A DNA stretch of 64,000 nt, from the NCBI RefSeq assembly GCF_002863005.1, contig NZ_PKDG01000013.1:1-64000 (forward strand). The letters run 5' to 3'. This document shows, piece by piece, positions 1 through 56,070 of the stretch; position 1 is the stretch's first letter, and the number at the start of each line of letters is the position of its first letter. Position numbers and translations under genes: made by a program. The notes beneath the pieces were generated by a model. It did not search any database and had not been told where the DNA came from. It saw only the letters and a list, made by a program, of their open reading frames with translations. This DNA comes from Pseudoxanthomonas sp. GTDB taxonomy: Bacteria > Pseudomonadota > Gammaproteobacteria > Xanthomonadales > Xanthomonadaceae.

Positions 1-92
1 GCATTGCTGTAGCGATGGGTGGTTCTGGGGCCCGGCTTTGGCATGGGGACACTCCTGAGGGTTAGGTCAAGGTGTCCACTAAACCGTAGGAA

Positions 93-311
93 CTACCGGT
101 TCGGCTTGAATGAATTGTTAGGCTGCGGGTCAGGGCATCTTGGCTCGCTGTTCTCCGAGGTCACCTTTGGCTTGATGCAAGGATCGCAACAAGTCTTTGG
201 GTCATCAATCAAGATTGCGGGTTGCTCGGGAGGCGGAGGAAGCTCGGATCGCTTAATGGCACAGGCAGAAAGAAACAACGCGAGAAGAACGAACACTGCT
301 CTGGCTGCCAT
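93..311 (-). CDS. Cassette 20: small Cys-rich lipoprotein
   Basis: This 72-residue product starts MAARAVFVLLALFLSAC: a charged N-terminus, a hydrophobic stretch and an LSAC lipobox, so the mature protein should be lipidated at Cys17. Beyond that come a short Pro-rich stretch and a CCDPC cluster; I recognise no family. The reading frame runs into the half attC site and ends there with the attC-encoded tail NNSFKPN followed by R and a stop lying in the non-attC sequence to its left. The ATG at 311 was chosen because the signal peptide begins there. Confidence 0.6.
   Translation of the reverse strand: MAARAVFVLLALFLSACAIKRSELPPPPEQPAILIDDPKTCCDPCIKPKVTSENSEPRCPDPQPNNSFKPNR
97..123 (-). repeat. 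attC 20, right half only
   Basis: Positions 97-123 match the R''-L'' arm of the other sites (GCCTAACAATTCATTCAAGC and on to CCGAACC on the minus strand). Left of 97 the matching L'-R' arm is absent and replaced by unrelated DNA. This is either an insertion into the site or the end of the array. Confidence 0.75.
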
Positions 312-326
312 TTTGGTTCCCCCGCC

Positions 327-387
327 GCCTAACACCTTGAGTTAAGCCGACCCGCGAAGCGGGTTCGGCTTGAACGAATAGTTATGC
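327..387 (-). repeat. attC 19
   Basis: A 61-bp site with minus-strand cores GCATAAC and GTTAGGC. The left arm carries AACTCAAGG, like the aadA-type sites, and the hairpin tip is CCGCTTCGCGG. Confidence 0.9.
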
Positions 388-689
388 GCCAAGGTAAGCC
401 CGAAGCCTGCGGCCTGCAACGGGCCCGGAGCATCCGGGAGCAGGAAATCACTCGCCGCCAGCCCGTAGCAGGGTGGGGCCCGTAAAGACCGAAGCCGACA
501 GCGACGCCGGTCCGCAAGTCGGAAGATCATCCGGAGGCCGTGCGGCGCGAAAACGATGCGTCCGAAGCCGAGTGAAGCGAAGCCAGAAGAGCGCGCCCGG
601 CCGACTTGTATCAACAATCGATCAGCACCGAAGCCGCAGCCACCGCATGATCGAGTGGCAACCGAAGCCGACAACGACCAAAGCCCCAC
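342..689 (-). CDS. Cassette 19: doubtful ORF, probably a non-coding cassette
   Basis: A GTG-initiated frame of 115 codons fills this cassette and ends in the attC-encoded tail YSFKPNPLRGSA. The translation is rich in Arg, Gly, Leu and Cys, has no recognisable motif, and comes largely from repeats of CCGAAGCCGA-like DNA. Other frames are equally open. The cassette may encode no protein. It is recorded because it is the only extended minus-strand frame starting inside the cassette. Confidence 0.2.
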   Translation of the reverse strand: MGLWSLSASVATRSCGGCGFGADRLLIQVGRARSSGFASLGFGRIVFAPHGLRMIFRLADRRRCRLRSLRAPPCYGLAASDFLLPDAPGPLQAAGFGLTLAHNYSFKPNPLRGSA

Positions 690-693
690 CCAC

Positions 694-753
694 GTATAAC
701 ACCGGAATTAAGCCGACCCGCGAAGCGGGTTCGGCTTGAATGAATTGTTAGGC
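694..753 (-). repeat. attC 18
   Basis: A 60-bp site with minus-strand cores GCCTAAC and a variant GTTATAC; the L boxes and hairpin tip are consensus. Confidence 0.9.
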
Positions 754-1019
754 CGCTCCCAGCGAGCCCTGGCAGCTAAGCCCGAGATGCGCTCTGCGGC
801 ACTCAGCAGAACTGACAAGTCCTCTGCAGGTTGCTCGTAAGGATTGCCAATAGTGCCGCACTTGTCATTTCCGATTGAGGCGGATTGCCTGAGATCAAGA
901 AGCCTCTCCACAAAATCTTGGGCGGAGCCAACCACGGGCTCAAGGTGATCAGCCACACGACTAGCCCGATCGGGATACTCGATTCTCAGTTGTTCCCAAA
1001 TTGGCAATGCATCTTGCAT
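708..1019 (-). CDS. Cassette 18: hypothetical protein
   Basis: A 103-residue acidic soluble protein begins MQDALPIWEQL and shows no signal peptide or membrane segment. I recognise no family. The frame passes through the R'' core of its attC and ends after the attC-coded tail PNNSFKPNPLRGSA, so the last 14 residues come from the recombination site. The native protein therefore probably ends near Trp-Glu-Arg. The R'' core of its attC (GCCTAAC) does not match the upstream core (GTTAGAC), unlike most cassettes here. Confidence 0.65.
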   Translation of the reverse strand: MQDALPIWEQLRIEYPDRASRVADHLEPVVGSAQDFVERLLDLRQSASIGNDKCGTIGNPYEQPAEDLSVLLSAAERISGLAARARWERPNNSFKPNPLRGSA

Positions 1020-1023
1020 AGCG

Positions 1024-1083
1024 GTCTAACGCCTGAATTAAGCCGACCCGCGAAGCGGGTTCGGCTTGAATGAATTGTTAGAC
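1024..1083 (-). repeat. attC 17
   Basis: A 60-bp site with matching minus-strand cores GTCTAAC and GTTAGAC; the arms are consensus. Confidence 0.93.
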
Positions 1084-1088
1084 GGCAA

Positions 1089-1670
1089 CTACGTGTACCA
1101 CACAACAACTGCTTGCCCTGCGCTAGCGGCCGCAGCGTAGAGCACACGGAGTTTGCGTAGATTCGGAAGAATGTACGTATCTAGCAAGTCGGTCTCCTCC
1201 ATCCAGTAACCGGGGAACACTTGCATCTCATCCATGAGTTCGGGATCGAGTGCATTCCGAAGGTCGTCATCCTGCAGGGTATGCAAGGCTGCAGAAAGCT
1301 CCTGGACCTGTGCTGGATCAAACACTGCGGCGGGGCCCATGCCGCTGTCGATCACATCTATACGCTTTTCCGATCTGCCCTCAATTGCGACTAAAGGTAG
1401 GTCGACTGGGGCCGCGTCCAATCTAGCGTTGCTCTCAGCAATGAACGCATCATCTAGATCAGGGTCCGACATCACCCGCCAGTTGTGCTCGTCCTCCAGT
1501 CGCTTTGTGCTTGAAGCTAGCCAAGCAATTGGCTCCCATGCCTGATCAACGTCAATCACCTCGGCGCCAGGAAGGCTAGAGATGACTGCACTTGGATCAG
1601 AGCCAGCTCGAACGCTCAGCTGGGAAACTTGTGCAGGTGCAAGCCTTGCGTAGTTTGCAACGATGCTCAC
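1089..1670 (-). CDS. Cassette 17: DUF1877 (YfbM-like) protein
   Basis: This 193-residue protein has the DUF1877/YfbM pattern: an N-terminal MSIVANYARL strand, the VDQAW helix near residue 40, the Asp/Glu-rich middle, an FDPAQVQELSAAL helix, and a C-terminal PNLRKLRVLYAAAASAG helix followed by a VVVWYT strand. The family has no established biochemical role and is common in mobile and toxin-immunity-like settings. The start is GTG, chosen for the AAGGAG sequence 6 nt upstream and the family N-terminus. The stop lies just before the attC, so no attC tail is added. Confidence 0.85.
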   Translation of the reverse strand: MSIVANYARLAPAQVSQLSVRAGSDPSAVISSLPGAEVIDVDQAWEPIAWLASSTKRLEDEHNWRVMSDPDLDDAFIAESNARLDAAPVDLPLVAIEGRSEKRIDVIDSGMGPAAVFDPAQVQELSAALHTLQDDDLRNALDPELMDEMQVFPGYWMEETDLLDTYILPNLRKLRVLYAAAASAGQAVVVWYT

Positions 1671-1684
1671 GAACTCTCCTTGCC

Positions 1685-1744
1685 GTCTAACACCGGAATT
1701 AAGCCGACCCGCGAAGCGGGTTCGGCTTGAATGATTTGTTAGGC
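1685..1744 (-). repeat. attC 16
   Basis: A 60-bp site with minus-strand cores GCCTAAC and GTTAGAC. One arm base differs (AAATCATTC instead of AATTCATTC). Confidence 0.93.
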
Positions 1745-2023
1745 GTCATCGCCGCCCGCGGGATTCTTGTCATACCAAGACTCAGAGTGAACTTCACGCT
1801 TGGCGTCCGCAATCAAAGACTCAAGCTGCGCCACAGGGACTCGAACGCTACTGCCTGATACCGCCATCTCAAAGAACAGTGTGTCATCTGCCTCATCGGC
1901 CAAAAAGCTTGCGAAGTAGCGTTCTTGGCCTTCGATCTCGCACGAGAGCTCAAGCCTCATGCCTTCACCGTGCAGTGCAGCCCAAGTAGCCTTGATCTCT
2001 TTCACGCAAGACGATGCCTCCAT
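1739..2023 (-). CDS. Cassette 16: hypothetical protein
   Basis: A 94-residue acidic cytosolic protein begins MEASSCVKEIKATW. Its pattern of short strands (RLELSCEIEGQERYFASFL) and a C-terminal helix suggests a small alpha/beta fold; no family is recognised. The stop codon TAA is the TAA within the R'' core GCCTAAC of its own attC, so gene end and recombination site overlap by design. Confidence 0.65.
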   Translation of the reverse strand: MEASSCVKEIKATWAALHGEGMRLELSCEIEGQERYFASFLADEADDTLFFEMAVSGSSVRVPVAQLESLIADAKREVHSESWYDKNPAGGDDA

Positions 2024-2026
2024 GAC

Positions 2027-2086
2027 GCCTAACCCCTGAATTAAGCCGACCCGCGAAGCGGGTTCGGCTTGAATGAATTGTTAGCC
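2027..2086 (-). repeat. attC 15
   Basis: A 60-bp site with minus-strand cores GGCTAAC and GTTAGGC; the arms are consensus apart from a CAGGG variant near R'. Confidence 0.93.
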
Positions 2087-2511
2087 CCAACCTCATGTGG
2101 CCAAGTTGGCTCGCGCTGGATTGGAAAGACGATCTCTAGCAAAGGAACATCAACCTGTGACTTGGAATCGATATCCAGAATCAGGGGCCATGATCGCTCC
2201 GAATCAGTGTAAGCGGATACGGACACTCTCTTAAGAACACCTTTGCAGCTGTCGCCTCGTAAAGCAGAATGGCCCGAGTATGTGTTAAAGCTGATAGGAA
2301 TGGAGTAGCGGCCTGCTGAATCCGTGAGCGACATGGCGGGACCACTTGGCATGGAGTTCTCCGACCAAGCAACGCCCACTAGTGCAGATTTGACAGGATT
2401 GCCTTGCTTGTCTGCGACAGATCCAGAAAAGACAAGGAATCTATCGCCACACTTTGCAGCCAAGGGCGCGATAGGCGCCCAGAAAAGCATCAGAAGGACG
2501 ATAACTTTCAT
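2041..2511 (-). CDS. Cassette 15: exported protein with carboxypeptidase-regulatory-like domain
   Basis: The 156-residue product starts MKVIVLLMLFWAPIAPLAAKC, a signal peptide probably cleaved after ALA (a Cys soon follows but there is no clean lipobox). Residues 30-90 carry the signature of a carboxypeptidase-regulatory-like beta sandwich: FSGSVADKQGNPVKSALVGV, then SLTDSAGRYSIPI. Such domains usually sit on surface or periplasmic proteins. An in-frame upstream start (4 codons) lies within the preceding core site and is less likely. The C-terminus reads into the attC and ends NNSFKPNPLRGSA. Confidence 0.75.
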   Translation of the reverse strand: MKVIVLLMLFWAPIAPLAAKCGDRFLVFSGSVADKQGNPVKSALVGVAWSENSMPSGPAMSLTDSAGRYSIPISFNTYSGHSALRGDSCKGVLKRVSVSAYTDSERSWPLILDIDSKSQVDVPLLEIVFPIQREPTWPHEVGANNSFKPNPLRGSA

Positions 2512-2514
2512 TGG

Positions 2515-2574
2515 GGCTAACACCGGAATTAAGCCGACCCGCGAAGCGGGTTCGGCTTGAATGAATTGTTAGGC
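2515..2574 (-). repeat. attC 14
   Basis: A 60-bp site with minus-strand cores GCCTAAC and GTTAGCC; the arms are consensus. Confidence 0.93.
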
Positions 2575-2799
2575 CGACCAGTCGATCTGCCAGCCCGACT
2601 CCGCAAAGAACTGTTGCAGATCATTGCGGCTATCAACCCACGAATCAAAGCCTCGACGCTCGTTGGGGCCCTCTGAGCCATCCCACCACTCGTGAATCAG
2701 AAAGCCACCGGTGTCGTCCGCGTCATCAGCGACCCTGACTCGGTGAGCCACTTTGCCGCTGTTGAGGATGCTGCCGACAACGTTGATGGGGATCTTCAT
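2569..2799 (-). CDS. Cassette 14: hypothetical protein
   Basis: A 76-residue acidic, Trp-rich soluble protein starts MKIPINVVGSILNSGKVAHR. Features visible are the GGFLIHEWWDG segment near residue 35 and two closing Trp residues. I recognise no family. The stop is the TAA inside the attC R'' core, the commonest arrangement in this array. Confidence 0.65.
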   Translation of the reverse strand: MKIPINVVGSILNSGKVAHRVRVADDADDTGGFLIHEWWDGSEGPNERRGFDSWVDSRNDLQQFFAESGWQIDWSA

Positions 2800-2803
2800 G
2801 GCG

Positions 2804-2863
2804 GCCTAACACCAGAATTAAGCCGACCCGCGAAGCGGGTTCGGCTTGAATGAATTGTTAGGC
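2804..2863 (-). repeat. attC 13
   Basis: A 60-bp site with minus-strand cores GCCTAAC and GTTAGGC; the arms are consensus. Confidence 0.93.
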
Positions 2864-3142
2864 CGCAACCGACAAAACGCGACCTATCCCTTTGTTACCA
2901 TTCTCCCAGACTGTGAAATTAGAACCCACAGGAAAGTGCTTAAGTGCATCTGGAACTAGTAGCTGCACCGTGGCATGAAAGGTATCGCCGGGTCCAGGAC
3001 TGTCCGCAAAAGTAAGGCGGGCAGACCAGTGCTCGTTGCCGATGCCAAGAATGGTGCGCCACTTACCAGATGCCAACGGAGTTGATCGACTACCGGTCTC
3101 AATCGGAAGAAGATGGATCTCGGCAACAAAGTGAGCTTTCAT
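2858..3142 (-). CDS. Cassette 13: stand-alone EF-Tu domain III-like protein
   Basis: The 94-residue protein matches the third (C-terminal beta-barrel) domain of elongation factor Tu almost end to end. It has FVAEIHLLPIETGSRSTPL where EF-Tu has F-x-A/S-E-V-x-x-L-x-x-x-E-G-G-R-x-T-P. It then has PGDTFHATVQLLVPDAL (EF-Tu: PGDN, then a TV-L-x-x-P-I-A strand) and NFTVWENGNKGIGRVLSV (EF-Tu: FAIREGGRTVGAGVV). No GTPase domain is present. In EF-Tu this barrel contacts tRNA and EF-Ts; what a free copy does is unknown. The stop codon is the TAA of the attC core. Confidence 0.75.
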   Translation of the reverse strand: MKAHFVAEIHLLPIETGSRSTPLASGKWRTILGIGNEHWSARLTFADSPGPGDTFHATVQLLVPDALKHFPVGSNFTVWENGNKGIGRVLSVAA

Positions 3143-3146
3143 TGCG

Positions 3147-3206
3147 GCCTAACACCAGAATTAAGCCGACCCGCGAAGCGGGTTCGGCTTGAATGAATTG
3201 TTAGAC
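3147..3206 (-). repeat. attC 12
   Basis: A 60-bp site with minus-strand cores GTCTAAC and GTTAGGC; the arms are consensus. Confidence 0.93.
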
Positions 3207-3210
3207 CGCA

Positions 3211-3483
3211 TCATGACCACCACCGACGGTCCTCTGGATACTCAGCCCTGACATCCACATCCGAAGGGCCGTGACACTTTATATCCCAAGCCTCTTCAGG
3301 AGTCAGGATCCGCACGCCACACATGCGTAGATCACAAGAGCGGGGCTGAGAGCCGTCTATAAGCGATATACCCCAGACCTCGCCGTCGCCGCTGCCCACA
3401 CAAAGGCACGGATGAAAAGCGCAGTCCTCGTAGATCTCGCCGGGAGAGATGATGAGATCACCGAATTTGTCCCGATCTTCCAT
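3211..3483 (-). CDS. Cassette 12: Cys-containing hypothetical protein
   Basis: A 90-residue protein from MEDRDKFGDLIISPGEIY has five Cys residues in DCAFHPCLC, SCDLRMC and KC contexts, plus a GISLIDGSQPR segment. The spacing could bind a metal or form disulphides, but there is no signal peptide. I know similar sequences only as unnamed cassette-type proteins. The ATG at 3483 was preferred over one four codons upstream that falls inside the core site. The stop is a few bases before the attC. Confidence 0.65.
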   Translation of the reverse strand: MEDRDKFGDLIISPGEIYEDCAFHPCLCVGSGDGEVWGISLIDGSQPRSCDLRMCGVRILTPEEAWDIKCHGPSDVDVRAEYPEDRRWWS

Positions 3484-3486
3484 GCG

Positions 3487-3546
3487 GTCTAACACCAGAA
3501 TTAAGCCAACCCGCGAAGCGGGTTCGGCTTGAATGAATTGTTAGCG
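3487..3546 (-). repeat. attC 11
   Basis: A 60-bp site with minus-strand cores CGCTAAC and GTTAGAC. One L-box base differs (GCCAACC instead of GCCGACC on the plus strand), which introduces a mismatch in the stem. Confidence 0.92.
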
Positions 3547-3547
3547 C

Positions 3548-3964
3548 TCAAGGCGAAATCCTTGCGTCAACAAAGAAGACTGCTCTCAGTCTCTCGCTGC
3601 ACTCAGCTTTGTCAGCCTTAATGGTATCGGCCTGCCATTGAGGGCTGACCGGAGTAATGGCCACAATCTGAGAAGGATTGACTCCGTGCTGGAGTAGGAA
3701 CGTCCTGGCCGCGATTGCTCTCTGGAACCATAGCTCGTTAGCTCCTTCCTCAGTTGTGCACGCGCTACCCTCTATCCGCGCCCGAATCTCGGGGTTGCGC
3801 AACATCAGATCTGCACCTTCGTGGAGGATTGCTATTGAGTCGGGCCTCAATGTCGCACTGTTAGGGTCAAAGTTTATCCGATGAAATCTAATCTCACCCT
3901 CCGCTTCCACAGAAGAAGCGAGCGCAAGTACAGCCAAAGTCCATTTTGTTGCTCTCAGACCCAT
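3548..3964 (-). CDS. Cassette 11: exported OmpA-like domain protein
   Basis: The 138-residue product has an N-terminal signal peptide (MGLRATKWTLAVLALASSVEA) and then an OmpA C-terminal, peptidoglycan-binding type domain. It shows HRINFDPNSATLRPDSIAIL, then a helix with LMLRNPEIRARIEGSACTTE, then the RAIAARTFLLQHGVNPSQIV helix-strand unit. In the family an Asp and an Arg in these positions hold diaminopimelate. The protein is barely longer than the domain, so it would be a free periplasmic OmpA-like module. The stop lies just outside the attC. Confidence 0.8.
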   Translation of the reverse strand: MGLRATKWTLAVLALASSVEAEGEIRFHRINFDPNSATLRPDSIAILHEGADLMLRNPEIRARIEGSACTTEEGANELWFQRAIAARTFLLQHGVNPSQIVAITPVSPQWQADTIKADKAECSERLRAVFFVDARISP

Positions 3965-3981
3965 CTGAAATCTCCATTGAG

Positions 3982-4096
3982 CGCTAACGCCTGAATTAAG
4001 CCGACCCGCACTGGGTTGGCACCGAAGCCGATATTACCCAGAACGAACCGAAGTTAGGAAACCTGATGCGGGTTCGGCTTGAATGAATTGTTAGCC
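3982..4096 (-). repeat. attC 10, long variant (115 bp)
   Basis: The outer arms and cores (minus strand GGCTAAC and GTTAGCG) match the other sites. The usual CCGCTTCGCGG tip is replaced by about 60 bp of extra sequence that contains its own hairpin (CTGGGT at 4011-4016 with ACCCAG at 4036-4041). This is an enlarged variable terminal structure. Confidence 0.88.
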
Positions 4097-4097
4097 G

Positions 4098-4634
4098 TCA
4101 TTGGCCCACCCTTTTCCATTCCGAAGACATGCGCTGGCTATGTAAGAGCTCCTCTAGCGCCCACACTTGGTAAGGCGCTACTTGGCCATAGTCCCTGACA
4201 GTCCAGCGGCCGTCTTTACCTGTCACGGTAATCTCGGCTGAGTAGTCATCTCTCCACTGGCCTGCGTACTCGGATTGGTCCGATGCGGACTGGGCTGCGT
4301 GCACCAACTGTGCAAGTCGAGCAAAGTCTCTCAAGTTGATATGCGCCGAGTATTTAATGGATTTTTCTGGTAACAGATAATCGTCGGTCAGAAATGCCTC
4401 TCCATTACGGTAGAAGGTCACTGAGTACACAGGACATCCTCCTAAGCATGGGCCGCGCTCTAGCTTGATGCTGTCGTACGGGATGAGGCTGGTCACATGT
4501 TGCGTATCCAGAATCGCGGGAGTCGACGAGATTGCTTGTTGCAGTTCGCTCCATGATGTAGTGGAAGGAGGTGCAGGTTCCTTCTGGCAGCCGGCCAGGA
4601 GCGCCGATACTAGGATTACAAGGAGTTTTTGCAT
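4098..4634 (-). CDS. Cassette 10: DUF6438 lipoprotein
   Basis: The 178-residue product begins MQKLLVILVSALLAGC, a lipoprotein signal with an LLAGC lipobox (Cys16). The body has the DUF6438 hallmark ERGPCLGGCPVYSVTFYRNG (C-x-G-x-CPVY) followed by an acidic beta-rich region. Members are exported proteins of unknown role. An in-frame start four codons upstream is possible, but the lipobox fixes the mature N-terminus. The stop is immediately before the long 115-bp attC. Confidence 0.8.
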   Translation of the reverse strand: MQKLLVILVSALLAGCQKEPAPPSTTSWSELQQAISSTPAILDTQHVTSLIPYDSIKLERGPCLGGCPVYSVTFYRNGEAFLTDDYLLPEKSIKYSAHINLRDFARLAQLVHAAQSASDQSEYAGQWRDDYSAEITVTGKDGRWTVRDYGQVAPYQVWALEELLHSQRMSSEWKRVGQ

Positions 4635-4637
4635 GAC

Positions 4638-4697
4638 GGCTAACACCAGAATTAAGCCGACCCGCGAAGCGGGTTCGGCTTGAATGAATTGTTAGCG
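4638..4697 (-). repeat. attC 9
   Basis: A 60-bp site with minus-strand cores CGCTAAC and GTTAGCC; the arms are consensus. Confidence 0.93.
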
Positions 4698-5063
4698 CCC
4701 ATGACAGGGAACTGCGTGCGTGGTCTCAATATAGCCAATTTCACTGCGGTAGTTGCCCAGCCCGACTCGGTCCGGTCCAAATGCAATGAACTTGCCAGAT
4801 ACTGCAATGCAATGGGTGGCGGAGTTGCGCAATTTGGCCACGAGCGTAACTGGGGCAACGACGTCGAGGCAGCTGCCTGTCGGGTCGCCGGCGTGACCGG
4901 CTGGACAGAGGTATAGAAGCGACTCTCCGAGGTCACTGAAGATCGGTGTGCCGGAAATCTGCAAGGTGCTGTCGTCACGCGCGCTTAAATCTGTATCCAA
5001 TGAGGCTGGCGCGTAGCTGGTACATCCGGCTGGCAACATCAGTAGCAGAAGAGCTCGCTTCAT
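4692..5063 (-). CDS. Cassette 9: lipoprotein
   Basis: A 123-residue product starts MKRALLLLMLPAGCTSYAPA, with a short lipoprotein signal and a PAGC lipobox. The mature part has four more Cys (YLCPAGHAG, GSCLDVV, THCIAV, VPCHGR), probably paired in the periplasm. No family is recognised. Its stop is the TAA in the CGCTAAC core of its attC. Confidence 0.7.
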   Translation of the reverse strand: MKRALLLLMLPAGCTSYAPASLDTDLSARDDSTLQISGTPIFSDLGESLLYLCPAGHAGDPTGSCLDVVAPVTLVAKLRNSATHCIAVSGKFIAFGPDRVGLGNYRSEIGYIETTHAVPCHGR

Positions 5064-5066
5064 GGG

Positions 5067-5127
5067 CGCTAACACCTTGAGTTAAGCCGACCCGCGGAGC
5101 GGGTTCGGCTTGAATGATTTGTTAGGC
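5067..5127 (-). repeat. attC 8
   Basis: A 61-bp site with minus-strand cores GCCTAAC and GTTAGCG. The hairpin tip is CCGCTCCGCGG and the left arm carries AACTCAAGG. Confidence 0.92.
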
Positions 5128-5520
5128 CTCTCCCGCGGTACGTGCACTGTACTCGCGCCATGACCTAATGCCTGAGAAAGGATCTTTGTCTAGGAATTCT
5201 GCAGTTGACATATCAATTGCCCGCCAGCCATTAGTGCTGCAAAACGATAGTATCTTGGGAACAATCTGATCTGACGCACGCACGTGGAGCATAAGACTCT
5301 CCGCTGGGTCCGAGTCACCCAGGTTGAACTCAACTGATCCGGCGCTACTGTCAAAGACGCCCCATGCGGGATCTGACCAGTCTGCTCCAGGGAAACTCGA
5401 TGAGATGGCATCCCGCACTGCCAGGAGAGGTCCGAGCGGAAGGCTATCTCCGTCATCGGGTACATCCGATATATCGTCGTACCGACGGCTAAAGCGCTGC
5501 ACCAATACATCCCAACTCAC
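5122..5520 (-). CDS. Cassette 8: MSWD-type hypothetical protein
   Basis: A 132-residue soluble acidic protein starts (GTG) MSWDVLVQRF and contains FPGADWSDPAWGVFDSSAGS, a stretch ending VEFNLGDSDP, and a VRASDQIVPKILSFCSTNGW helix. It resembles a widespread but unnamed bacterial family beginning MSWD that I know only as hypothetical. A GGAGA sequence 5-6 nt before the GTG supports the start. The stop is the TAA in the attC core. Confidence 0.7.
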   Translation of the reverse strand: MSWDVLVQRFSRRYDDISDVPDDGDSLPLGPLLAVRDAISSSFPGADWSDPAWGVFDSSAGSVEFNLGDSDPAESLMLHVRASDQIVPKILSFCSTNGWRAIDMSTAEFLDKDPFSGIRSWREYSARTAGEA

Positions 5521-5536
5521 GGTTGTCTCCAGAGAG

Positions 5537-5596
5537 GCCTAACACCGGAATTAAGCCGACCCGCGAAGCGGGTTCGGCTTGAATGAATTGTTAGGT
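5537..5596 (-). repeat. attC 7
   Basis: A 60-bp site with minus-strand cores ACCTAAC and GTTAGGC; the arms are consensus. Confidence 0.93.
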
Positions 5597-5626
5597 GTGC
5601 TTTGTCCGCAAGTCATGAACTCAGCC

Positions 5627-5845
5627 TCACCCTGCCCGGAATGCCCGCTGCTTTGCCGGAATGCCATGAACCTTCTCCCTAATCCCCTCTAGGATTACCA
5701 ATCGTTTGAAAAACGACTTGCGGCCTTGAGATGTTTCGCCGTTCTCGTAACCCCAGAGGCAGCGTCCAATCTCATGATTGAGATCGCTCAACGGCAAAGC
5801 TGCCAGCACGTCCGGATCTTGCTCCTTGATGGTTGGGGTTGCCAT
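5627..5845 (-). CDS. Cassette 7: small basic helical protein
   Basis: A 72-residue protein begins MATPTIKEQDPDVLAALPL, continues through LSDLNHEIGRCLWGYENG, and ends in a basic helix (KSFFKRLVILEGIREKVHGI). It looks wholly helical and soluble. I recognise no named family. This cassette's attC R'' core (ACCTAAC) does not match the core upstream (GTTAGGC), so it may have been joined by an imprecise event. Confidence 0.65.
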   Translation of the reverse strand: MATPTIKEQDPDVLAALPLSDLNHEIGRCLWGYENGETSQGRKSFFKRLVILEGIREKVHGIPAKQRAFRAG

Positions 5846-5850
5846 TGCAC

Positions 5851-5910
5851 GCCTAACACCGGAATTAAGCCGACCCGCGAAGCGGGTTCGGCTTGAATGA
5901 ATTGTTAGGT
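5851..5910 (-). repeat. attC 6
   Basis: A 60-bp site with minus-strand cores ACCTAAC and GTTAGGC; the arms are consensus. Confidence 0.93.
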
Positions 5911-6381
5911 GCCGCCCGCGACCTGTCCAAGGACTGGTTGGGCTGCACGAAACTCTGAGGTTGCCTGATGATGCCAGGGAAACAAGCCGGAACGAGATGG
6001 CCAAACAATCTGATAGAGCGGGAAGTTGTTGCCCAAGTAGTACCAGCGGGCATAACCGACGTGCTCGCGGTACTCTGAGAACGGGACCTCAGCAAAACAG
6101 CAGGAATACTGGTTGAGAAGGGCATCAGTTGGTTTGGACAAGTCGAGTGGAGCCCCAGCCTTTGCAGCGTCAGCGGCGATCGCGAGGATCTGGTGTGAGA
6201 CTTTTGAAGGCAAGCCAAAGATGATGAGCTCGGGATGCCCGTAAGTTTGATGCAGGCCAATCGTAAAAGAGTACTCGACGTGCTCGCCCTCGGCCACGAT
6301 GTTGACGCAGTGCCATCCATGCTCGGCAATGTCGTCAATGACTTTCTGCTCGCTTTTGTCCTCGCCAACTGTGCGAACCAT
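5905..6381 (-). CDS. Cassette 6: DUF4262 protein
   Basis: The 158-residue protein has the DUF4262 signature: a helix (KVIDDIAEHGWHCVNIV), then EYSFTIGLHQTYGHPELIIF with GLPSKVSHQIL, and a closing aromatic strand region (YARWYYLGNNFPLYQIVW). DUF4262 proteins have no proven function; the H-P-E-L motif is invariant. The ATG at 6381 is preferred over an in-frame GTG three codons upstream that overlaps the core site. The stop is the TAA of the attC core. Confidence 0.85.
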   Translation of the reverse strand: MVRTVGEDKSEQKVIDDIAEHGWHCVNIVAEGEHVEYSFTIGLHQTYGHPELIIFGLPSKVSHQILAIAADAAKAGAPLDLSKPTDALLNQYSCCFAEVPFSEYREHVGYARWYYLGNNFPLYQIVWPSRSGLFPWHHQATSEFRAAQPVLGQVAGGT

Positions 6382-6388
6382 GTGCGGC

Positions 6389-6448
6389 ACCTAACACCAG
6401 AATTAAGCCGACCCGCGAAGCGGGTTCGGCTTGAATGAATTGTTAGGC
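6389..6448 (-). repeat. attC 5
   Basis: A 60-bp site with minus-strand cores GCCTAAC and GTTAGGT; the arms are consensus. Confidence 0.93.
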
Positions 6449-6793
6449 TGCAGCGCCATGTAACGTTGCAACCAGCTCGCCAGCAGATTGCCTTGTGAGT
6501 GGGCGGGTGAGCAAGGGGTTGGCTAGCTCCCAGATTGCCTCAGCGACCGGCGAGAGCTGGGGAAAGCCGATGTCCTCACGGCACTCAATAGCATTGGCCC
6601 AGGCCTCTACGTCAGCATCTGAAATATCACCCGCTAGGAACCGACCGAGAATGGCCGAGATGTGCCCCGACTCCAAGGTGACCAAGTCCTCCTCCGAGTC
6701 CCAGGAAAAGGCCGATAGATCATGGGTCACGTCGGCGAGAGGGCGGCTGAAGTGAAGAAGGTCTTCTAGGTGTGATGTGCGCGTCACTGTCAC
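6443..6793 (-). CDS. Cassette 5: hypothetical acidic helical protein
   Basis: A 116-residue, strongly acidic protein (GTG start; another GTG two codons on) contains ILGRFLAGDISDADVEAWAN followed by AIECREDIGF. This helix-turn-helix-like pattern is seen in unnamed small proteins of Proteobacteria. There is no signal peptide. The stop is the TAA of the attC R'' core. Confidence 0.6.
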   Translation of the reverse strand: MTVTRTSHLEDLLHFSRPLADVTHDLSAFSWDSEEDLVTLESGHISAILGRFLAGDISDADVEAWANAIECREDIGFPQLSPVAEAIWELANPLLTRPLTRQSAGELVATLHGAAA

Positions 6794-6797
6794 TGCA

Positions 6798-6857
6798 GCC
6801 TAACACCAGAATTAAGCCGACCCGCGAAGCGGGTTCGGCTTGAATGAATCGTTAGGT
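6798..6857 (-). repeat. attC 4
   Basis: A 60-bp site with minus-strand cores ACCTAAC and GTTAGGC. GATTCATTC replaces AATTCATTC next to the R'' core. Confidence 0.93.
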
Positions 6858-7231
6858 GGGGAGCCGGTGAGGTCTTGCAACTGAGCTGGCTTAAGCGGCA
6901 TGCCCTCGGGTTGCTCGTCCACAGCTTTAATCCAGAGCTGTCCGTCTGAGCGAGCCTCAACCTCAACCGGGCGTGAGGCCGAACAAAGAACGAGCATCGC
7001 TGTAGAAACCAAGAAGCGGTGGTTGACGGCGCCAAAATCGAGTGAAGACAGCGAAGTGACCGGGACAGCCGCACTATCGCTCGGCTCTAGTACAAGATCA
7101 CGACCCTCCATAGGGACAGATACGTCCACCCCGGAGGAATTGAACAAGGTGACGGCACAAGCCGGATCGCCCGTGGTGGTGAGCAGGAATGCAACTAAGC
7201 CTAGAGCTACCGCCACTTTTGGCCTCCCCAC
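6812..7231 (-). CDS. Cassette 4: exported hypothetical protein
   Basis: A 139-residue product begins (GTG) MGRPKVAVALGLVAFLLTTT, with signal-peptide character and likely cleavage after ACA near residue 26. The mature part is beta-rich (VTLFNSSGVDVSVPMEGRDL). The C-terminus reads through the attC and ends NDSFKPNPLRGSA. Asp replaces the usual second Asn because this attC has GATTC where others have AATTC. No family is recognised. Confidence 0.6.
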   Translation of the reverse strand: MGRPKVAVALGLVAFLLTTTGDPACAVTLFNSSGVDVSVPMEGRDLVLEPSDSAAVPVTSLSSLDFGAVNHRFLVSTAMLVLCSASRPVEVEARSDGQLWIKAVDEQPEGMPLKPAQLQDLTGSPPNDSFKPNPLRGSA

Positions 7232-7289
7232 CTAACACCGGAATTAAGCCGACCCGCGAAGCGGGTTCGGCTTGAATGAATTGTTAGGC
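7230..7289 (-). repeat. attC 3
   Basis: A 60-bp site with minus-strand cores GCCTAAC and GTTAGGT; the arms are consensus. Confidence 0.93.
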
Positions 7290-7538
7290 CCCGATCCGTT
7301 TGCTGGATTTGCGAGCCTTGTTGTGTGAGCGAATTGCTTCAGCGCAATCAGCCTCTGTCGGAAGAGTGCGATCAGTTTCGATTGCATGCCAGCCCCCACA
7401 GTCTGGATCAGGGCAGCCGCAAGTAATAAAGCGAACCGGGTGCTTGGATAGCCCATCCCGCTTTTGGATGGCATTGGTGCGCTCCTGGCTCTTGATCACG
7501 TCAACGATCGCGCCACGTTTCAAGAATTTTCCGACCAT
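7284..7538 (-). CDS. Cassette 3: small basic protein with CxC-x4-C cluster
   Basis: An 84-residue basic protein has the central motif FITCGCPDPDCGGWH (C-x-C-x4-C plus His), which could bind one metal ion. It has Lys/Arg-rich ends (VGKFLKRGAIVDVIK; SHNKARKSSKRIG). A nucleic-acid-binding role is conceivable but not shown. The stop is the TAA of its attC core. Confidence 0.65.
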   Translation of the reverse strand: MVGKFLKRGAIVDVIKSQERTNAIQKRDGLSKHPVRFITCGCPDPDCGGWHAIETDRTLPTEADCAEAIRSHNKARKSSKRIGA

Positions 7539-7557
7539 CTTAGATGTCTCTTTCGGG

Positions 7558-7617
7558 GCCTAACACCAGAATTAAGCCGACCCGCGAAGCGGGTTCGGCT
7601 TGAATGAATTGTTAGGC
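7558..7617 (-). repeat. attC 2
   Basis: A 60-bp site with minus-strand cores GCCTAAC and GTTAGGC; the arms are consensus. Confidence 0.93.
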
Positions 7618-7623
7618 CATCGC

Positions 7624-7968
7624 CTAGTGAGGGCGCAGCCGCGAATCAACCGAGGCGTCCAAGTCAGGCGTGACCACTGCGCTGACAGCATAGCTGTCGC
7701 CACCCTCAAAGTATCCATAGGGCGGCAAGACGACGCTCTTGCCCGAGGCCACAAAGGAAAGGGCAAGGCCGGACTTCCCGCGTGGCCGAATTTTTGCTGT
7801 AGCAGTGGCGCCTGGCTCGAGATTGCCCAAGGACTGTGTGAAGCCTGATCCAGATACAACGACAGACTGGAGCAAAACCCCAGAACGATTCTCCACGGAC
7901 AGTGGGGTGGAATCGCTGCAGCCAGTAATCCCAAGGAGTGCAATTCCGAGTAGCAGCAGATGCCTCAT
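7624..7968 (-). CDS. Cassette 2: lipoprotein
   Basis: A 114-residue product starts MRHLLLLGIALLGITGC, a lipoprotein signal with an ITGC lipobox (Cys17), and continues as a beta-rich domain (LSVENRSGVLLQSVVVSGSG). The opening of the mature part weakly recalls that of cassette 4, but I would not call them homologous. The stop falls just before the attC. Confidence 0.7.
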   Translation of the reverse strand: MRHLLLLGIALLGITGCSDSTPLSVENRSGVLLQSVVVSGSGFTQSLGNLEPGATATAKIRPRGKSGLALSFVASGKSVVLPPYGYFEGGDSYAVSAVVTPDLDASVDSRLRPH

Positions 7969-7973
7969 AGATG

Positions 7974-8033
7974 GCCTAACACCAGAATTAAGCCGACCCG
8001 CGAAGCGGGTTCGGCTTGAATGAATTGTTAGGT
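7974..8033 (-). repeat. attC 1
   Basis: A 60-bp site with minus-strand cores ACCTAAC and GTTAGGC. Its R'' core matches the GTTAGGT core at 8435-8441 that bounds the first cassette on its other side. Confidence 0.93.
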
Positions 8034-8431
8034 GCCATGGCCGAGATCACTGAGCGGAGATCCTCCACAGCACGTTGTCGAATCTTGGGAGACTTTATAT
8101 GGCCTGGCAAGCGGCTAAGCCAATGACTGTTGGGCCCATGCCCGCCACCACGAACAGCGGATAGGCGGCGCGACGTAGGAAGGGGCTTGCGCCGAAGGAC
8201 ATCTACACACTCGGCAAGCTGTGCGGCGGAAGAGAAGCGAAAAGTGAAGCCCTGTGACTCGATGCAAAGTACAGGATAGCCGCTGCGGCCCTCGGCCCTA
8301 GGTGCCGGTGGGCTGTATGACTCGGACGCGCGCCATGCGGCACCGTCTAGTTCCAGGTGAACCCAGTAGGCCATCGGCTCGTCGCGCCAGTCCTGGGTGT
8401 GCTCAATCCAGTTGCGGGCAACCTTTCCCAT
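7988..8431 (-). CDS. Cassette 1: hypothetical protein, first in the array
   Basis: A 147-residue protein begins MGKVARNWIEHTQDWRDEPM; an internal Met at 8374 (MAYWVHLELDG) is an alternative start that gives a more protein-like N-terminus. It contains IESQGFTFRFSSAAQL and a basic C-terminal half. No family is recognised. The frame ends with the attC-coded tail NNSFKPNPLRGSA. As the cassette nearest the putative Pc promoter it should be the best expressed. Confidence 0.6.
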   Translation of the reverse strand: MGKVARNWIEHTQDWRDEPMAYWVHLELDGAAWRASESYSPPAPRAEGRSGYPVLCIESQGFTFRFSSAAQLAECVDVLRRKPLPTSRRLSAVRGGGHGPNSHWLSRLPGHIKSPKIRQRAVEDLRSVISAMAPNNSFKPNPLRGSA

Positions 8432-8434
8432 GGC

Positions 8435-8465
8435 ACCTAACACCTAGTAGACCCCATTCCGGGGT
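8435..8465 (-). other. Putative attI core and flank
   Basis: GTTAGGT at 8441-8435 (minus strand) is the last core site of the array, with no attC arms on its high-coordinate side, as expected for attI. A short inverted repeat (ACCCC at 8451-8455 with GGGGT at 8461-8465) lies directly beside it. The rest of 8442-8742 holds no credible gene and no recognisable integrase remnant on either strand. Confidence 0.55.
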
Positions 8466-8475
8466 AATAGCGCCG

Positions 8476-8504
8476 AGTATTCAGCCAAGCGGAATGGTCG
8501 TCAA
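8476..8504 (-). promoter_or_regulatory. Candidate cassette promoter Pc
   Basis: On the minus strand TTGACG (8504-8499) is followed after exactly 17 nt by AATACT (8481-8476). This matches sigma70 at 5 of 6 and 4 of 6 positions. It would start transcription near 8469, run through the attI core and read all cassettes. This is where Pc sits when it lies in attI rather than in intI. Confidence 0.55.
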
Positions 8505-8742
8505 CGAGGGCTGGGGTTTGCCGGACAAGCGCTTCGCCGCCTTTGCAGCGAGAACCGCATCCCTGAGGCACCCGTGTTATCAGGCAGAAGCGAGGAGGTT
8601 CGGGATTATCAGGGCCTCCATCTGGTGATAGCAGGCTGGATGAATGCATGAGGCGACCGGCGGGGGACGGTGTAGATCGCGTGCTGACTGTCATCCGTGC
8701 GTTCCACGTGTCGATTCATGGTCACCATTCGCATGAGTCGAT

Positions 8743-11700
8743 TCAGTTATCGGGCGAGGGCGGTGCATCCGGTACGTGGTGGGCGGCGAGGAAGGCGCGC
8801 AGGGAGGCGGGCTTCACGGGTTTGGTCAGCAGGCGGTAGCCGCGTTCGCGGGCTTCGCGCTTGAGTTCGTCGCGGCCGTCGGCGGTGAGCAGGGCGCCGG
8901 CGATGGGGCCGGGGCTGGCGGCGCGCAGGGCGTCGAGGGTGGCCAGGCCGTCGAGGCGGTCGTGCAGGTGGTAGTCCACCAGCATCACGGTCGGGCCTTC
9001 GGCGATCTTCTGCAAGGCTTCGTCGACGGTCGTTGCGGTGATGACCTCTGCCTGCCAGCGGCCGAGCAGGGCCTGCATGCCGTCGATGATCTCGCGGTCG
9101 TTGTCGACGCAGAGCACGCGCAGTCCGGCGAGCGAATCGCTGCCCAAGGCAGCGCGTCGTGTGCTGCGACGTTCGACGACGTGCGCGCCGCGGGGGACGA
9201 TGATCGAGAACATGCTGCCGCGATCCACGGTGCTGCGCGCGTCCAGTTCGTGCTGCAGCAGGCGTGAGATGCGCTGGCAGATCGACAGGCCCAGTCCCAG
9301 TCCGCGCTCACCCCAGTCGAAGGGTTGCTGGTAGCGGTGGAACTCGTCGTAGATCTGCCGCATGTGGTTCTCGGGGATGCCGGGTCCCGTGTCCCACACC
9401 TGCAACGCGATGCGGTCGCCACGAGCGCGCATGCCGATAACGATGCGGCCAGCACGGGTATAGCGCAGGGCGTTGGCGAGGAAATTCTGCAGCACGCGGC
9501 GCAACAGGCGTCGGTCGCTGCGCACGGGAATCGCGCGCGCGTGGACGCGGAGCGCCAGTCCGCGCCCGGCGGCGACCGGGGCGTACTGCGCCGCGAGTTC
9601 ACGCAGCAGTTCGCCGGCGTCGAAATCGGTGATCTGCGTGTGCAGGCCGCCGGCATCGAGGCGGGAGACATCCAGCAGGCCATCCAGCAGTTCCTCGGCG
9701 GCGCGCAGCGATGCATCCACGCGCTCGGCCAGGTGCTGCCGCTCCTGTGCCTGCGCGTCGCTGCCCTGTTCGCTGTCGCGCAGGGCGCTGACGAACAGGC
9801 GCGCGGCGTTCAGCGGTTGCAGCACGTCGTGGCTGATCGCGGCCAGGAAGCGCGTGCGGGATTGCTGAGCATGTTCGGCCGCCTCGCTACGCTCGGCGAC
9901 ACGCTGCTCGAGGGTTTCGTTGGTCTCCAGCAGCAGCGCTTCGGCATGCTTGAAGTCGGTGATGTCGTTGTAGCTGGTCACGTAGCCGCCACCCGGCAGC
10001 GGCTGGCCGCGCATCTCGATGACCTGGCCATCGGCGCGCACGCGCTCGAAGATGTGCGGGGAACCGGCGCGCATGTAGCGGATGCGCTTGTTGATCTGCG
10101 CGTCGATATCGCCATCGCCCAGCTCGCCGCGCTCGGCGTTGTAGCGGATCAGGTCGGCGACGGGACGGCCAACGTAGAGCATGCCATCGGGGTAGCCAAA
10201 CATCTGCTGGTAGCGGCGGTTCCAGGCCACCAGCCGCATGTCGGGGTCGACGACGCTCACGCCTGCGCTGATGTTCTCCAGCGTGGTCGACAGGATTTCA
10301 CGGTTGAAGCGCAGTTCCTGTCCGGCCTGGTCGAGGACCGCCACCACTTCGCCCAGTTCCATGCCCGATCCGCGCAGCACGCTGGTCAGCACGATGCGCG
10401 CCGACGCCGCGCCGATGGCGGCCGCGAGCAGGCGTTCGGTGAACTGCACCCAGGCACGGTCCGCGGGGGCGTTGGGTTGCAGGTCGCGATCGAGCAGGTG
10501 CGCCTGTTCCGCGAACGCACGGCGCGCATGGCGTTCGCCGACGACGCGCTCGGCCAGTGTGCGCAGGTCGCCGATGCGCACGCTGCCCGGCCACTCGCCG
10601 GCCACCAGGGCGGGGCGTTGCGCGTAGGGGTCGAGGAAGGGCGCGGCGCGCAGGCGCTCGTCCACCCCGGGGCGCGAGCGCGCGGAGACGATCATCATCG
10701 CGCCGGTGTTGACCAGCAGCGACCAGAACGTCCCGTGCGTCAGCGTGTCCCAGCCGCTCAGGCCGAACAGTTGTTGCGGGCGCAGCCAGCGGATGCCGAA
10801 CGGACCGTCGTGCAGCCAGAGCACATCGAACCAACCGGCTTGCGTCATCGTCGGCAGCAGCAGGGTGTAGATCCACGTGGCGAAGCCGAGCACCATGCCG
10901 ACTTCCACGCCGCGGCGGCTGGCACCGCGCCAGTACAGCCCGCCGATCAGGCCCGGCGCGAACTGCGCGACGGCGGCGAAGGCCATCAGGCCATACGACG
11001 CCAGCGTGCTGTCGTTGCTGCTGCTGCGGTAGTACGAATACGCCGTCAGCGCGAGCAGCAGGATCGTCACGCGGCGGATCCACAGCACGCGCGAGGCGAC
11101 GTCGGCTTCGGCATGGTGGTCCGCCCAGCCGCGCCGCAGCAGCACGGGCATGATCAGGTCGTTGCTGACCATCGTCGCGAGCGCGATGCTCGCCACGATC
11201 ACCATGCCCGTGGCCGCCGAGAAGCCGCCCACGTACGCGATGATCGCCAGCGCGGTGCGGCCTTCCGCCAGCGGCAGCGCCAGCACGTAGCTGTCGTCGG
11301 CCACGCTGGTGCCGCCGAAAAGCGAGGCTCCGGCGGCCGCCACCGGAATGACCATCAGCGAGAACAGCACCAGGTAGGCACCGAACAGCCAGCGGGCCTT
11401 GCGGATGTCGCCCACGTCGCTGCATTCCACCACCGCCACGTGGAACTGGCGCGGCAGGCAGACGATGGCGAGGAAGCCGAGCAGCGTCTGCGCGATGAAG
11501 CCCACCGGCGGCGCATTCTCGAACAGCGTGCGTGCCGAATTGGTGACACGGAAGGCGTTGTCGTCCAGCCACAGATAGGCGAACACGCCGACGGAGATCA
11601 TCGCCACCAGCTTGACCACCGATTCCAGCGAGATCGCCAGCATCATGCCGTGGTGATGTTCGGTGGCATCGACCTGGCGCGTGCCGAACAGGGCGGCGAA

Positions 11701-12213
11701 CAGCGCCATCAACAGTGCGACGTACAGCGCGGGGTCGGTGAAGAAGCCATGCGCACTGTCGCCGCCTTCGCCGCTCAGCACGCTCAGGCTCATCGCGACG
11801 GCCTTGTACTGCAGCGCGAGGTAAGGCACCACGCCGATCAGCGCGATCACCGTGACCAGCGCGGCCAGCCGGCGCGAGCGGCCGTAGCGGGAGGAAATGA
11901 AGTCCGCGATGGAGACGGTGTTCTCGCTGCGCGCGATCAGCGCCAGCCGCTCGATGATGCGCCAGCCGAACAGCAGCAGCAGGATCGGGCCCAGGTAGAT
12001 CGGCAGGTAGCCCAGACCATTGCGCACCGCGCTGCCGACCGCGCCGTAGAAGGTCCATGACGAGCAGTAGACCGCCAGCGCCAGGCTGTAGACCACCGGG
12101 CGCAGCCACGGGCGGTCCGGGTACATCGGGCGGCGGTCGCCCCACCACGCCACGCCGAACAGCAGCGCGGCATAGCCGATCGACACCAACAGCAGGATCC
12201 AGCTGGAAACCAA
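8743..12213 (-). CDS. CrbS/MxtR-type hybrid sensor kinase with SLC5 symporter domain
   Basis: This 1156-residue protein has an N-terminal sodium:solute symporter (SLC5) domain of about 500 residues with many membrane segments. A linker, a PAS domain around residues 640-750, and a HisKA domain with His795 (AAISHDVLQPLN) come next. A HATPase domain (WDTGPGIPE, GLGLGLSI) follows, and then a C-terminal receiver domain with phospho-acceptor Asp1080 (VMLVDYHL). CrbS/MxtR kinases of this build work with a LuxR-type regulator to control acetate use; no such regulator gene is adjacent. The start is a TTG behind GGGAGAGG. It is the last gene of a minus-strand group with the next two genes (gaps of 63 and 41 bp) and its 3' end faces the cassette array. 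Confidence 0.9.
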   Translation of the reverse strand: MVSSWILLLVSIGYAALLFGVAWWGDRRPMYPDRPWLRPVVYSLALAVYCSSWTFYGAVGSAVRNGLGYLPIYLGPILLLLFGWRIIERLALIARSENTVSIADFISSRYGRSRRLAALVTVIALIGVVPYLALQYKAVAMSLSVLSGEGGDSAHGFFTDPALYVALLMALFAALFGTRQVDATEHHHGMMLAISLESVVKLVAMISVGVFAYLWLDDNAFRVTNSARTLFENAPPVGFIAQTLLGFLAIVCLPRQFHVAVVECSDVGDIRKARWLFGAYLVLFSLMVIPVAAAGASLFGGTSVADDSYVLALPLAEGRTALAIIAYVGGFSAATGMVIVASIALATMVSNDLIMPVLLRRGWADHHAEADVASRVLWIRRVTILLLALTAYSYYRSSSNDSTLASYGLMAFAAVAQFAPGLIGGLYWRGASRRGVEVGMVLGFATWIYTLLLPTMTQAGWFDVLWLHDGPFGIRWLRPQQLFGLSGWDTLTHGTFWSLLVNTGAMMIVSARSRPGVDERLRAAPFLDPYAQRPALVAGEWPGSVRIGDLRTLAERVVGERHARRAFAEQAHLLDRDLQPNAPADRAWVQFTERLLAAAIGAASARIVLTSVLRGSGMELGEVVAVLDQAGQELRFNREILSTTLENISAGVSVVDPDMRLVAWNRRYQQMFGYPDGMLYVGRPVADLIRYNAERGELGDGDIDAQINKRIRYMRAGSPHIFERVRADGQVIEMRGQPLPGGGYVTSYNDITDFKHAEALLLETNETLEQRVAERSEAAEHAQQSRTRFLAAISHDVLQPLNAARLFVSALRDSEQGSDAQAQERQHLAERVDASLRAAEELLDGLLDVSRLDAGGLHTQITDFDAGELLRELAAQYAPVAAGRGLALRVHARAIPVRSDRRLLRRVLQNFLANALRYTRAGRIVIGMRARGDRIALQVWDTGPGIPENHMRQIYDEFHRYQQPFDWGERGLGLGLSICQRISRLLQHELDARSTVDRGSMFSIIVPRGAHVVERRSTRRAALGSDSLAGLRVLCVDNDREIIDGMQALLGRWQAEVITATTVDEALQKIAEGPTVMLVDYHLHDRLDGLATLDALRAASPGPIAGALLTADGRDELKREARERGYRLLTKPVKPASLRAFLAAHHVPDAPPSPDN

Positions 12214-55942: not shown

Positions 55943-56070
55943 GTGACAGATGCAACGTCTGTCACTGATCTCTCCCTTCCCCTGGAGCGATCTCCCCCGG
56001 AGCGACGACCCCTCCCCAGGTCCCGCTCCCCTGGCCCCGCCGACCCCCCCCTGGTCTGCGGGGCTTTTTA
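55943..56070 (+). ncRNA. sX13-like small RNA downstream of polA
   Basis: The roughly 370-bp gap after polA has the order AT-rich promoter region (TATAGC -10-like at 55934-55939), a strong hairpin (GTGACAGA/TCTGTCAC, 55943-55965), several C-rich stretches including a hairpin with loop TCCCGCTCC (56016-56034), and a terminator GCCCCGC/GCGGGGC plus T5 ending at 56069. Length (~127 nt), place after polA and C-rich loops match sX13 of Xanthomonas, an abundant Hfq-independent RNA that pairs with G-rich ribosome sites. The identification is from memory of sX13 and not from an alignment. Confidence 0.6.
56034..56070 (+). terminator. Terminator of the sX13-like RNA
   Basis: GCCCCGC (56034-56040) pairs with GCGGGGC (56058-56064), followed by TTTTTA. 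Confidence 0.75.

Follow-up and report, generated by a model that had tools for sequence, protein, structure and literature searches.

The window analysed here, bases 1-64000 of contig C8 (NZ_PKDG01000013.1) in a 3.96-Mb, 63-contig draft genome of Pseudoxanthomonas sp. (G000), opens with an integron-type array of gene cassettes. The array carried at its head an attI recombination site and a promoter-like site, with no integrase gene (intI) adjoining them, and it lay next to a gene for a hybrid sensor kinase. Cassette order ran from 8441 towards position 1. The attC sites that close the cassettes were located with R1, a covariance model trained on 30 attC sites of intI-adjacent arrays (contig C15 of G000 and relatives), from which the window attC sites were excluded. 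The head was scored with R2, a 69-nt platform model built from 27 sites, the window site among them. The features of the locus were as follows.

8743..12213, minus strand: hybrid sensor kinase with PAS, HisKA, HATPase and receiver domains (Pfam), the conserved neighbour
8436..8504, minus strand: integrase-less platform of 69 nt, promoter-like site plus attI (81.9 bits, E 5.1e-15 with R2)
8476..8504, minus strand: promoter-like TTGACG-17-AATACT, candidate cassette promoter Pc (consensus match)
8451..8465, minus strand: attI inverted repeat ACCCC-GGAAT-GGGGT, arms almost invariant and loops variable across the 27 sites
7974..8441, minus strand: cassette 1, with attC at 7974-8033 and an open reading frame (ORF) from ATG 8431 in no family
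327..7973, minus strand: cassettes 2 to 19, each closing with an attC
first bases of the attC sites of cassettes 2 to 19, minus strand (R1): 7558, 7230, 6798, 6389, 5851, 5537, 5067, 4638, 3982, 3487, 3147, 2804, 2515, 2027, 1685, 1024, 694 and 327
5905..6390, minus strand: cassette ORF, DUF4262 (Pfam PF14081, E 1.2e-38)
4098..4646, minus strand: cassette ORF, DUF6438 (Pfam PF20033, E 1.8e-18), lipoprotein-like by sequence reading
3548..3964, minus strand: cassette ORF, OmpA-like (Pfam PF00691, E 5e-9)
1089..1670, minus strand: cassette ORF, DUF1877 (Pfam PF08974, E 9.3e-20)
98..326, minus strand: cassette 20, its half attC at about 98-128 interrupted by an insertion sequence (IS) element
1..97, minus strand: end of the IS element inserted in attC (IS end 73-97), and the contig end

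R1 recovered 19 complete attC sites in the window, all on the minus strand between 327 and 8033, at 70-93 bits (E 8.8e-16 to 1.1e-21); mirror matches on the opposite strand, present for 18 of them, were far weaker at 24-33 bits. A first-pass annotation had described twenty attC sites of one family in a single orientation with near-identical arms, and had named a covariance-model search as the check. That search bore out the family and the orientation for 19 sites; the twentieth survived only as a half site, broken by the IS end at junction 97/98. The arms were almost identical. One site, 3982-4096, had a long variant centre and a total length of 115 nt, and the fold of another, 2804-2863, lay 5.9-6.5 standard deviations below dinucleotide shuffles. 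The right edge of the array, 8441, was the attI crossover, and the left edge was the contig end within the IS element. By synteny, the array continued past its left edge on contig C54, where a 21st cassette was read, followed by a second IS end and then an apparent truncated IS. With at least two attC sites and no intI near, the window array was a cluster of attC sites lacking integron integrases (CALIN). Set beside a complete sedentary integron, it possessed the one-orientation attC array and the attI head and lacked the adjacent intI. Elsewhere in the genome, a solitary attC-like site (L014, G000:C3:141499-141520) stood outside any array.

The interval 1..8441 that the first-pass annotation had assigned to the array was confirmed, whereas the head at 8436-8504, a promoter-like site and attI without an integrase, had been overlooked, as had the copying of attI from the main integron. 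The 47-nt core at 8436-8482 (minus strand) matched the attI beside intI, C15:87574-87620, base for base, and these two places were its only occurrences in the whole of G000. The window copy was followed immediately by cassette 1, at GTTAGG. TTGACG-17-AATACT was the sole promoter-like match in the 501 bases from 8300 to 8800, against an average of 0.2 in shuffles. The inverted repeat within attI gave a weak fold (z -1.5). Because no base pair had changed on both sides among the 27 sites, support for the attI hairpin consisted of the conserved arms and of a few other genomes in which the arms were altered together (G203, also G004/G037). In both attI copies of G203 (L254 and L255) the arms had changed to CCGCG..CGCGG, which hints that the repeat matters.

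A single integrase match above the family cut-off was found in G000, on C15. Its ORF was open across 354 codons and contained R, HxxR and Y, which we take to be the catalytic residues, and the attI of this main integron, C15:87574-87620, adjoined a gene read from its sequence as ComEC-like. In the window, no IntI-like piece was found in 1-12000 at E 0.05. An ordinary integron, with intI beside the array, was rejected on these two results.

The position of the array beside the kinase gene was shared by related species. Of the 38 genomes of the genus, 37 contained a kinase match with an E value of 1e-90 or lower, and the sequence downstream of the kinase was read in 30 of the 37, over about 1.5 kb or up to the contig end. 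Among the 15 species, the window's included, whose kinase C-terminus was at least 90% identical, 14 carried an attI-like platform downstream of the kinase, at a distance of up to 0.32 kb in 13 species and about 1 kb in G018; the exception was G021, with no attI seen at that place. No platform was seen within about 1.5 kb in the other 15 genomes read, which were more distant. Sites of attC stood behind the platform at 13 of the 14 kinase loci, and in G016 the contig ended right after attI. In the two single-contig genomes, the distance from the intI platform to the kinase platform was 1.5 Mb in G027 and 2.1 Mb in G023. TTGACG, the repeat arms and the GTT crossover were common to all 27 aligned sites (14 kinase-locus, 13 intI-locus), an agreement that was partly selection, because the collecting pattern required TTGACG and part of the arms; TTGACG was also present in 14 of 14 kinase-locus sites from an earlier search that did not require it. 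Three kinase-locus species possessed a third platform with attC behind it (G017:C4:1085585, G018:C6:226382 and G019:C7:230130; L231-L233).

The place of the array was conserved whereas its cargo changed, a pairing that the first-pass annotation had not recognised. Its expectation of variable cargo held between species: no two position-1 cassettes of the kinase locus were alike among the 12 species with an extractable cassette, and relatives of 9 of 19 window cassettes were found in arrays from 13 other genomes, many of these arrays being partial. Among the matches listed from these arrays, no pair of neighbouring window cassettes had neighbouring relatives. The cargo itself was scanned as 19 picked ORFs, one per cassette with cassette 19 excepted. 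The Pfam cut-off was passed by four of the 19 (DUF4262, DUF6438, OmpA and DUF1877), fewer than the roughly six products that had been placed in named families, and the NCBIfam cut-off by none; PADLOC gave zero matches at E 0.01 among the same 19. The description of a sedentary attC array with mostly unnamed cargo was upheld. Cassette 19 (window 388-693) was apparently without a convincing ORF; the arrays of other species contained many relatives of it, with DNA identities of about 67-91%.

The two attI sites of a genome were, on average, more alike than those of different genomes. This was measured in 12 genomes with both sites, over six overlapping segments; G017, G004 and G037 did not fit the pattern, G004 and G037 being outside the pairs. 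From after the -10 box to the crossover, identity was 0.877 within a genome versus 0.818 for permuted partners (p 5e-5, or 1e-4 with G028 removed). Taken singly, the pre-arm, loop and tail of attI had p values of 0.004, 0.011 and 0.0004. All these p values are indicative only, given the relatedness of the species, the testing of six segments that overlap and the dropping of G017. The 17-nt promoter spacer had no clear within-genome effect (p 0.17; with G028 removed, p 0.54). In G000 the two sites were identical over 47 nt, and G007, G009 and G016 were near that. Local conversion would fit this likeness, and so would coevolution with the IntI of the same genome.

Cassettes were also shared between the two arrays of some relatives, with a precision of single cassettes. 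Sharing was measured in 10 genomes with both arrays, often partial, at a threshold of at least 97% identity, which was reached by 20 of 4103 same-genome cross-array pairs versus 5 of 27412 cross-genome pairs. The 20 same-genome pairs came from five of the 10 genomes: G023 (8), G019 (6), G027 (3), G013 (2) and G018 (1). Sixteen pairs were examined with their surroundings (15 same-genome, 1 cross-genome), and 15 of these matched at 97.6-100% over the cassette body, one G013 pair being a partial match only. The attC sites of the 15 were 96-100% identical in 13 pairs and about 88-89% in two. For 13 of the 15, identity dropped to 0.49-0.59 in both 120-nt neighbours; the remaining two were adjacent cassettes that formed one two-cassette block in G023. 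Position-1 cassettes added a comparison with the neighbouring kinase. That of G027 was 98.8-99.2% identical to a G023 cassette, against 88.1% for the kinase DNA (904 nt), and the DNA of window cassette 1 was 95.6% identical to that of cassette 34 in the kinase-locus array of G019, against 85.8% over 900 nt of kinase. That these two position-1 cassettes were closer than the kinase genes suggests possible recent capture at the platform.

Traces of an origin from an intI locus were sought with a profile of 13 intI-locus upstream regions, compared with the 14 kinase-locus upstream regions. Nine of the 14 scored at least 8.8 bits, a weak similarity that was collinear with the start of intI and extended to around its start codon; the same score was reached by 29 of 3000 random 250-nt segments (real intI loci included). 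For these nine regions, the score was reached by 0 to 9 of 200 shuffles of a weak block-swap kind, and in eight of them the distance to the promoter was concordant within 4 nt, by comparison of match ends. The signal was absent in G000, G012 and G023 and was merely 3.5 bits in G016; G017 offered just 52 nt. The simplest reading would be that the integron head was copied once in an ancestor and that the remainder of intI was lost or not carried along. G011 carried four copies of the 69-nt site beyond its intI locus, three identical to the intI copy and one with one difference. Upstream, the stretch shared with the intI copy was 197-199 nt long in three copies, where its left end was at TTTATC, and 372 nt long in the fourth. 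Two of the three copies that ended at TTTATC had about 100 nt of further flank in common, and the third had another flank. It is conceivable, and in our view rather doubtful, that a head of about 200 bp (first intI codons, promoter and attI) acts as a spreading unit that is copied to new places and seeds new arrays, all under a single integrase, perhaps via IntI acting between an early-intI GTT site and the attI crossover.

Platform matches extended to other genera of the family. At E 1e-4, R2 matched 86 of the 395 genomes of the family, spread over 19 of its 54 genera, and 40 genomes had at least two matches; one match was often that beside intI, and the weak matches were not all checked. R2, whose training sites came from Pseudoxanthomonas, matched none of the genomes of genera g7 and g17. 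Around the stronger matches in multi-match genomes, 40 stretches were examined, a chosen rather than a random set. An integrase was present in eleven, in one case broken into two frames, and no full-length integrase was found in the other 29 within the sequence examined. R1 placed attC on the correct strand downstream of 24 of these 29 integrase-less sites, weakly at L236 and 3.5 kb away at L224. The five others comprised three with less than 500 nt examined, L255 with attC by a looser pattern only, and L253 with none in 3.9 kb. An N-terminal intI piece alone was present at six of the 29 (to model position 117 of 335 at most) and doubtfully at a seventh, and the rest gave no intI piece at E 0.05. 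Over 72 sites, identity was 0.904 within a genome versus 0.745 between genomes, a comparison in which genera are mixed, and the best match lay in the same genome for 34 of 65 sites, with 12 ties.

Some individual genomes stood out in this set. G005 (one intI) and G029 (no intI found) had four platform matches each, with almost the same attI core (L223-L230); G029 may have lost its integrase and kept its storehouses. At L236 and L242 (G152 and G055), the platform was followed by nearly the same sequence (GTTAGCCGGACAAAGC..) and a first cassette was not obvious; the attI there may be almost empty.

We put the probability at roughly three in four that the window array is the second storehouse of a distributed integron, with a head copied from the main integron and the C15 IntI serving it in trans; several cassette storehouses at dispersed places may share one integrase. 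The window head, promoter-like site plus attI, would have been copied from the main-integron head, with intI lost or omitted. IntI from the C15 locus would act in trans on the window platform and insert circular cassettes at the attI crossover, 8441. The platform's own promoter would read the cassettes inserted there, which would later be shuffled via their attC sites.

Several results weigh against this interpretation, besides the indicative standing of the p values for attI likeness. The two attI sites were no more alike than average (0.70-0.82) in G013, G018, G023, G030 and G032. In G000 itself, zero cassettes were common to its arrays among those compared (19, 8 and 3), and a genome with a second and different IntI, G023, supplied 8 of the 20 shared pairs. 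Homologous recombination could be the mover of some cassettes. Platforms were kept in G012 and G029 although no intI was found there (in G012 at the threshold used; G029 had four platforms), so that persistence of a platform is not proof of its use.

Alternatively, the array could be the fossil of a second integron that lost intI, its head a relic and its cassettes merely decaying, which we consider unlikely. The weak collinear similarity to the start of intI in 9 of 14 upstream regions is what such a past would leave, as are the 5' intI pieces that remain at other orphan platforms and the platforms of two genomes in which no intI was found. Decay is difficult to reconcile with a promoter-like site and attI conserved across 14 species, or with position-1 cassettes that differed among the 12 species from which they were extracted and that twice were closer to another species' cassette than the kinase was. 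A past loss of intI and use in trans today are compatible. Maintenance of attI likeness and movement of cassettes by homologous recombination or gene conversion, rather than by IntI, appeared very unlikely. The alike parts of attI were short blocks and one shared block covered two cassettes, as conversion might produce, but 13 of the 15 matching pairs stopped at the cassette edges with unrelated neighbours, and the promoter spacer did not follow the attI core.

Off-target insertion at an attG site, whose junction is unlike both attI and attC, was contradicted by the window junction, which was attI. The array starts with an exact 47-nt attI copy and a promoter-like site, making an ordinary CALIN of off-target origin highly improbable, even though passages on Xanthomonas describe fixed-place CALINs away from intI, and their mobilisation in trans (PMC12444791). 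An assembly artefact, in which one integron was misjoined to the kinase, would suit a draft with contig breaks at IS ends; it is scarcely credible, as the same layout was present in two single-contig genomes and 12 other species, and C54 and C33 matched two different flanks.

An attI-headed CALIN as such is not new, because one is in print: the Shewanella prophage M16-3 carries a CALIN with its own attI (PMC9892861). Both arrays are attI-headed, M16-3 being a single case within a prophage, and the passages on it are silent on a promoter, conservation by place, cassette traffic and many platforms per genome (PMC9892861). A sedentary chromosomal integron is like the window array in its attI, promoter-like site and one-direction attC array, and the window differs in having no adjacent intI. 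CALINs, for which three origins have been proposed (PMC8618304), are similar in their attC array without a neighbouring intI, and the window differs by its attI head at a conserved place (PMC9024848, PMC12444791, PMC8618304). Insertions at attG likewise put cassettes away from the main integron, at targets that differ from attI and attC (PMC12444791, PMC12901181). Displaced attI pieces are also known from Delta-attI-type cassettes, where they replace the cassette attC, whereas the window has a full head that starts the array (PMC12901181). Vibrio CALINs with a first cassette behind a putative promoter have been reported (PMC12690207). Within the passages of these papers and of the further literature compared (PMC11089894, PMC7148499, PMC9229058, PMC7923331), we found no attI platform fixed at one chromosomal place across species, no likeness of such a platform to the resident attI, no cassette-precise sharing with a main array, and no occurrence of several platforms per genome across a family. 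Annotation in which attI outside class 1 is not sought would miss the head; such attI go undetected by IntegronFinder (PMC9024848).

At the left edge of the array, the IS element that split the 20th attC belonged to a recurring pattern. In G000, five IS ends were found with up to one mismatch allowed, and each of them lay inside an attC at almost the same point (window 73-97; close to the end of L011; L012 70-94; L098 70-94 and 512-536). By reading of its C-terminal peptide the element was IS3-like, and it is possibly an attC-targeting insertion sequence. Farther along the window, 55954-56070 gave an Rfam match to the Xanthomonadaceae small RNA (sRNA) sX13.

CALINs are often taken as degraded or off-target arrays. 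If many of them have an attI copy and a promoter at their head, they would perhaps be working expression sites. Beyond the printed prophage case, the arrangement described here was kept at one chromosomal place across species and recurred within the family. Were many CALINs headed in this way, the integron would become a system in which a single integrase has many platforms, and it would offer more first-position slots than has been assumed.

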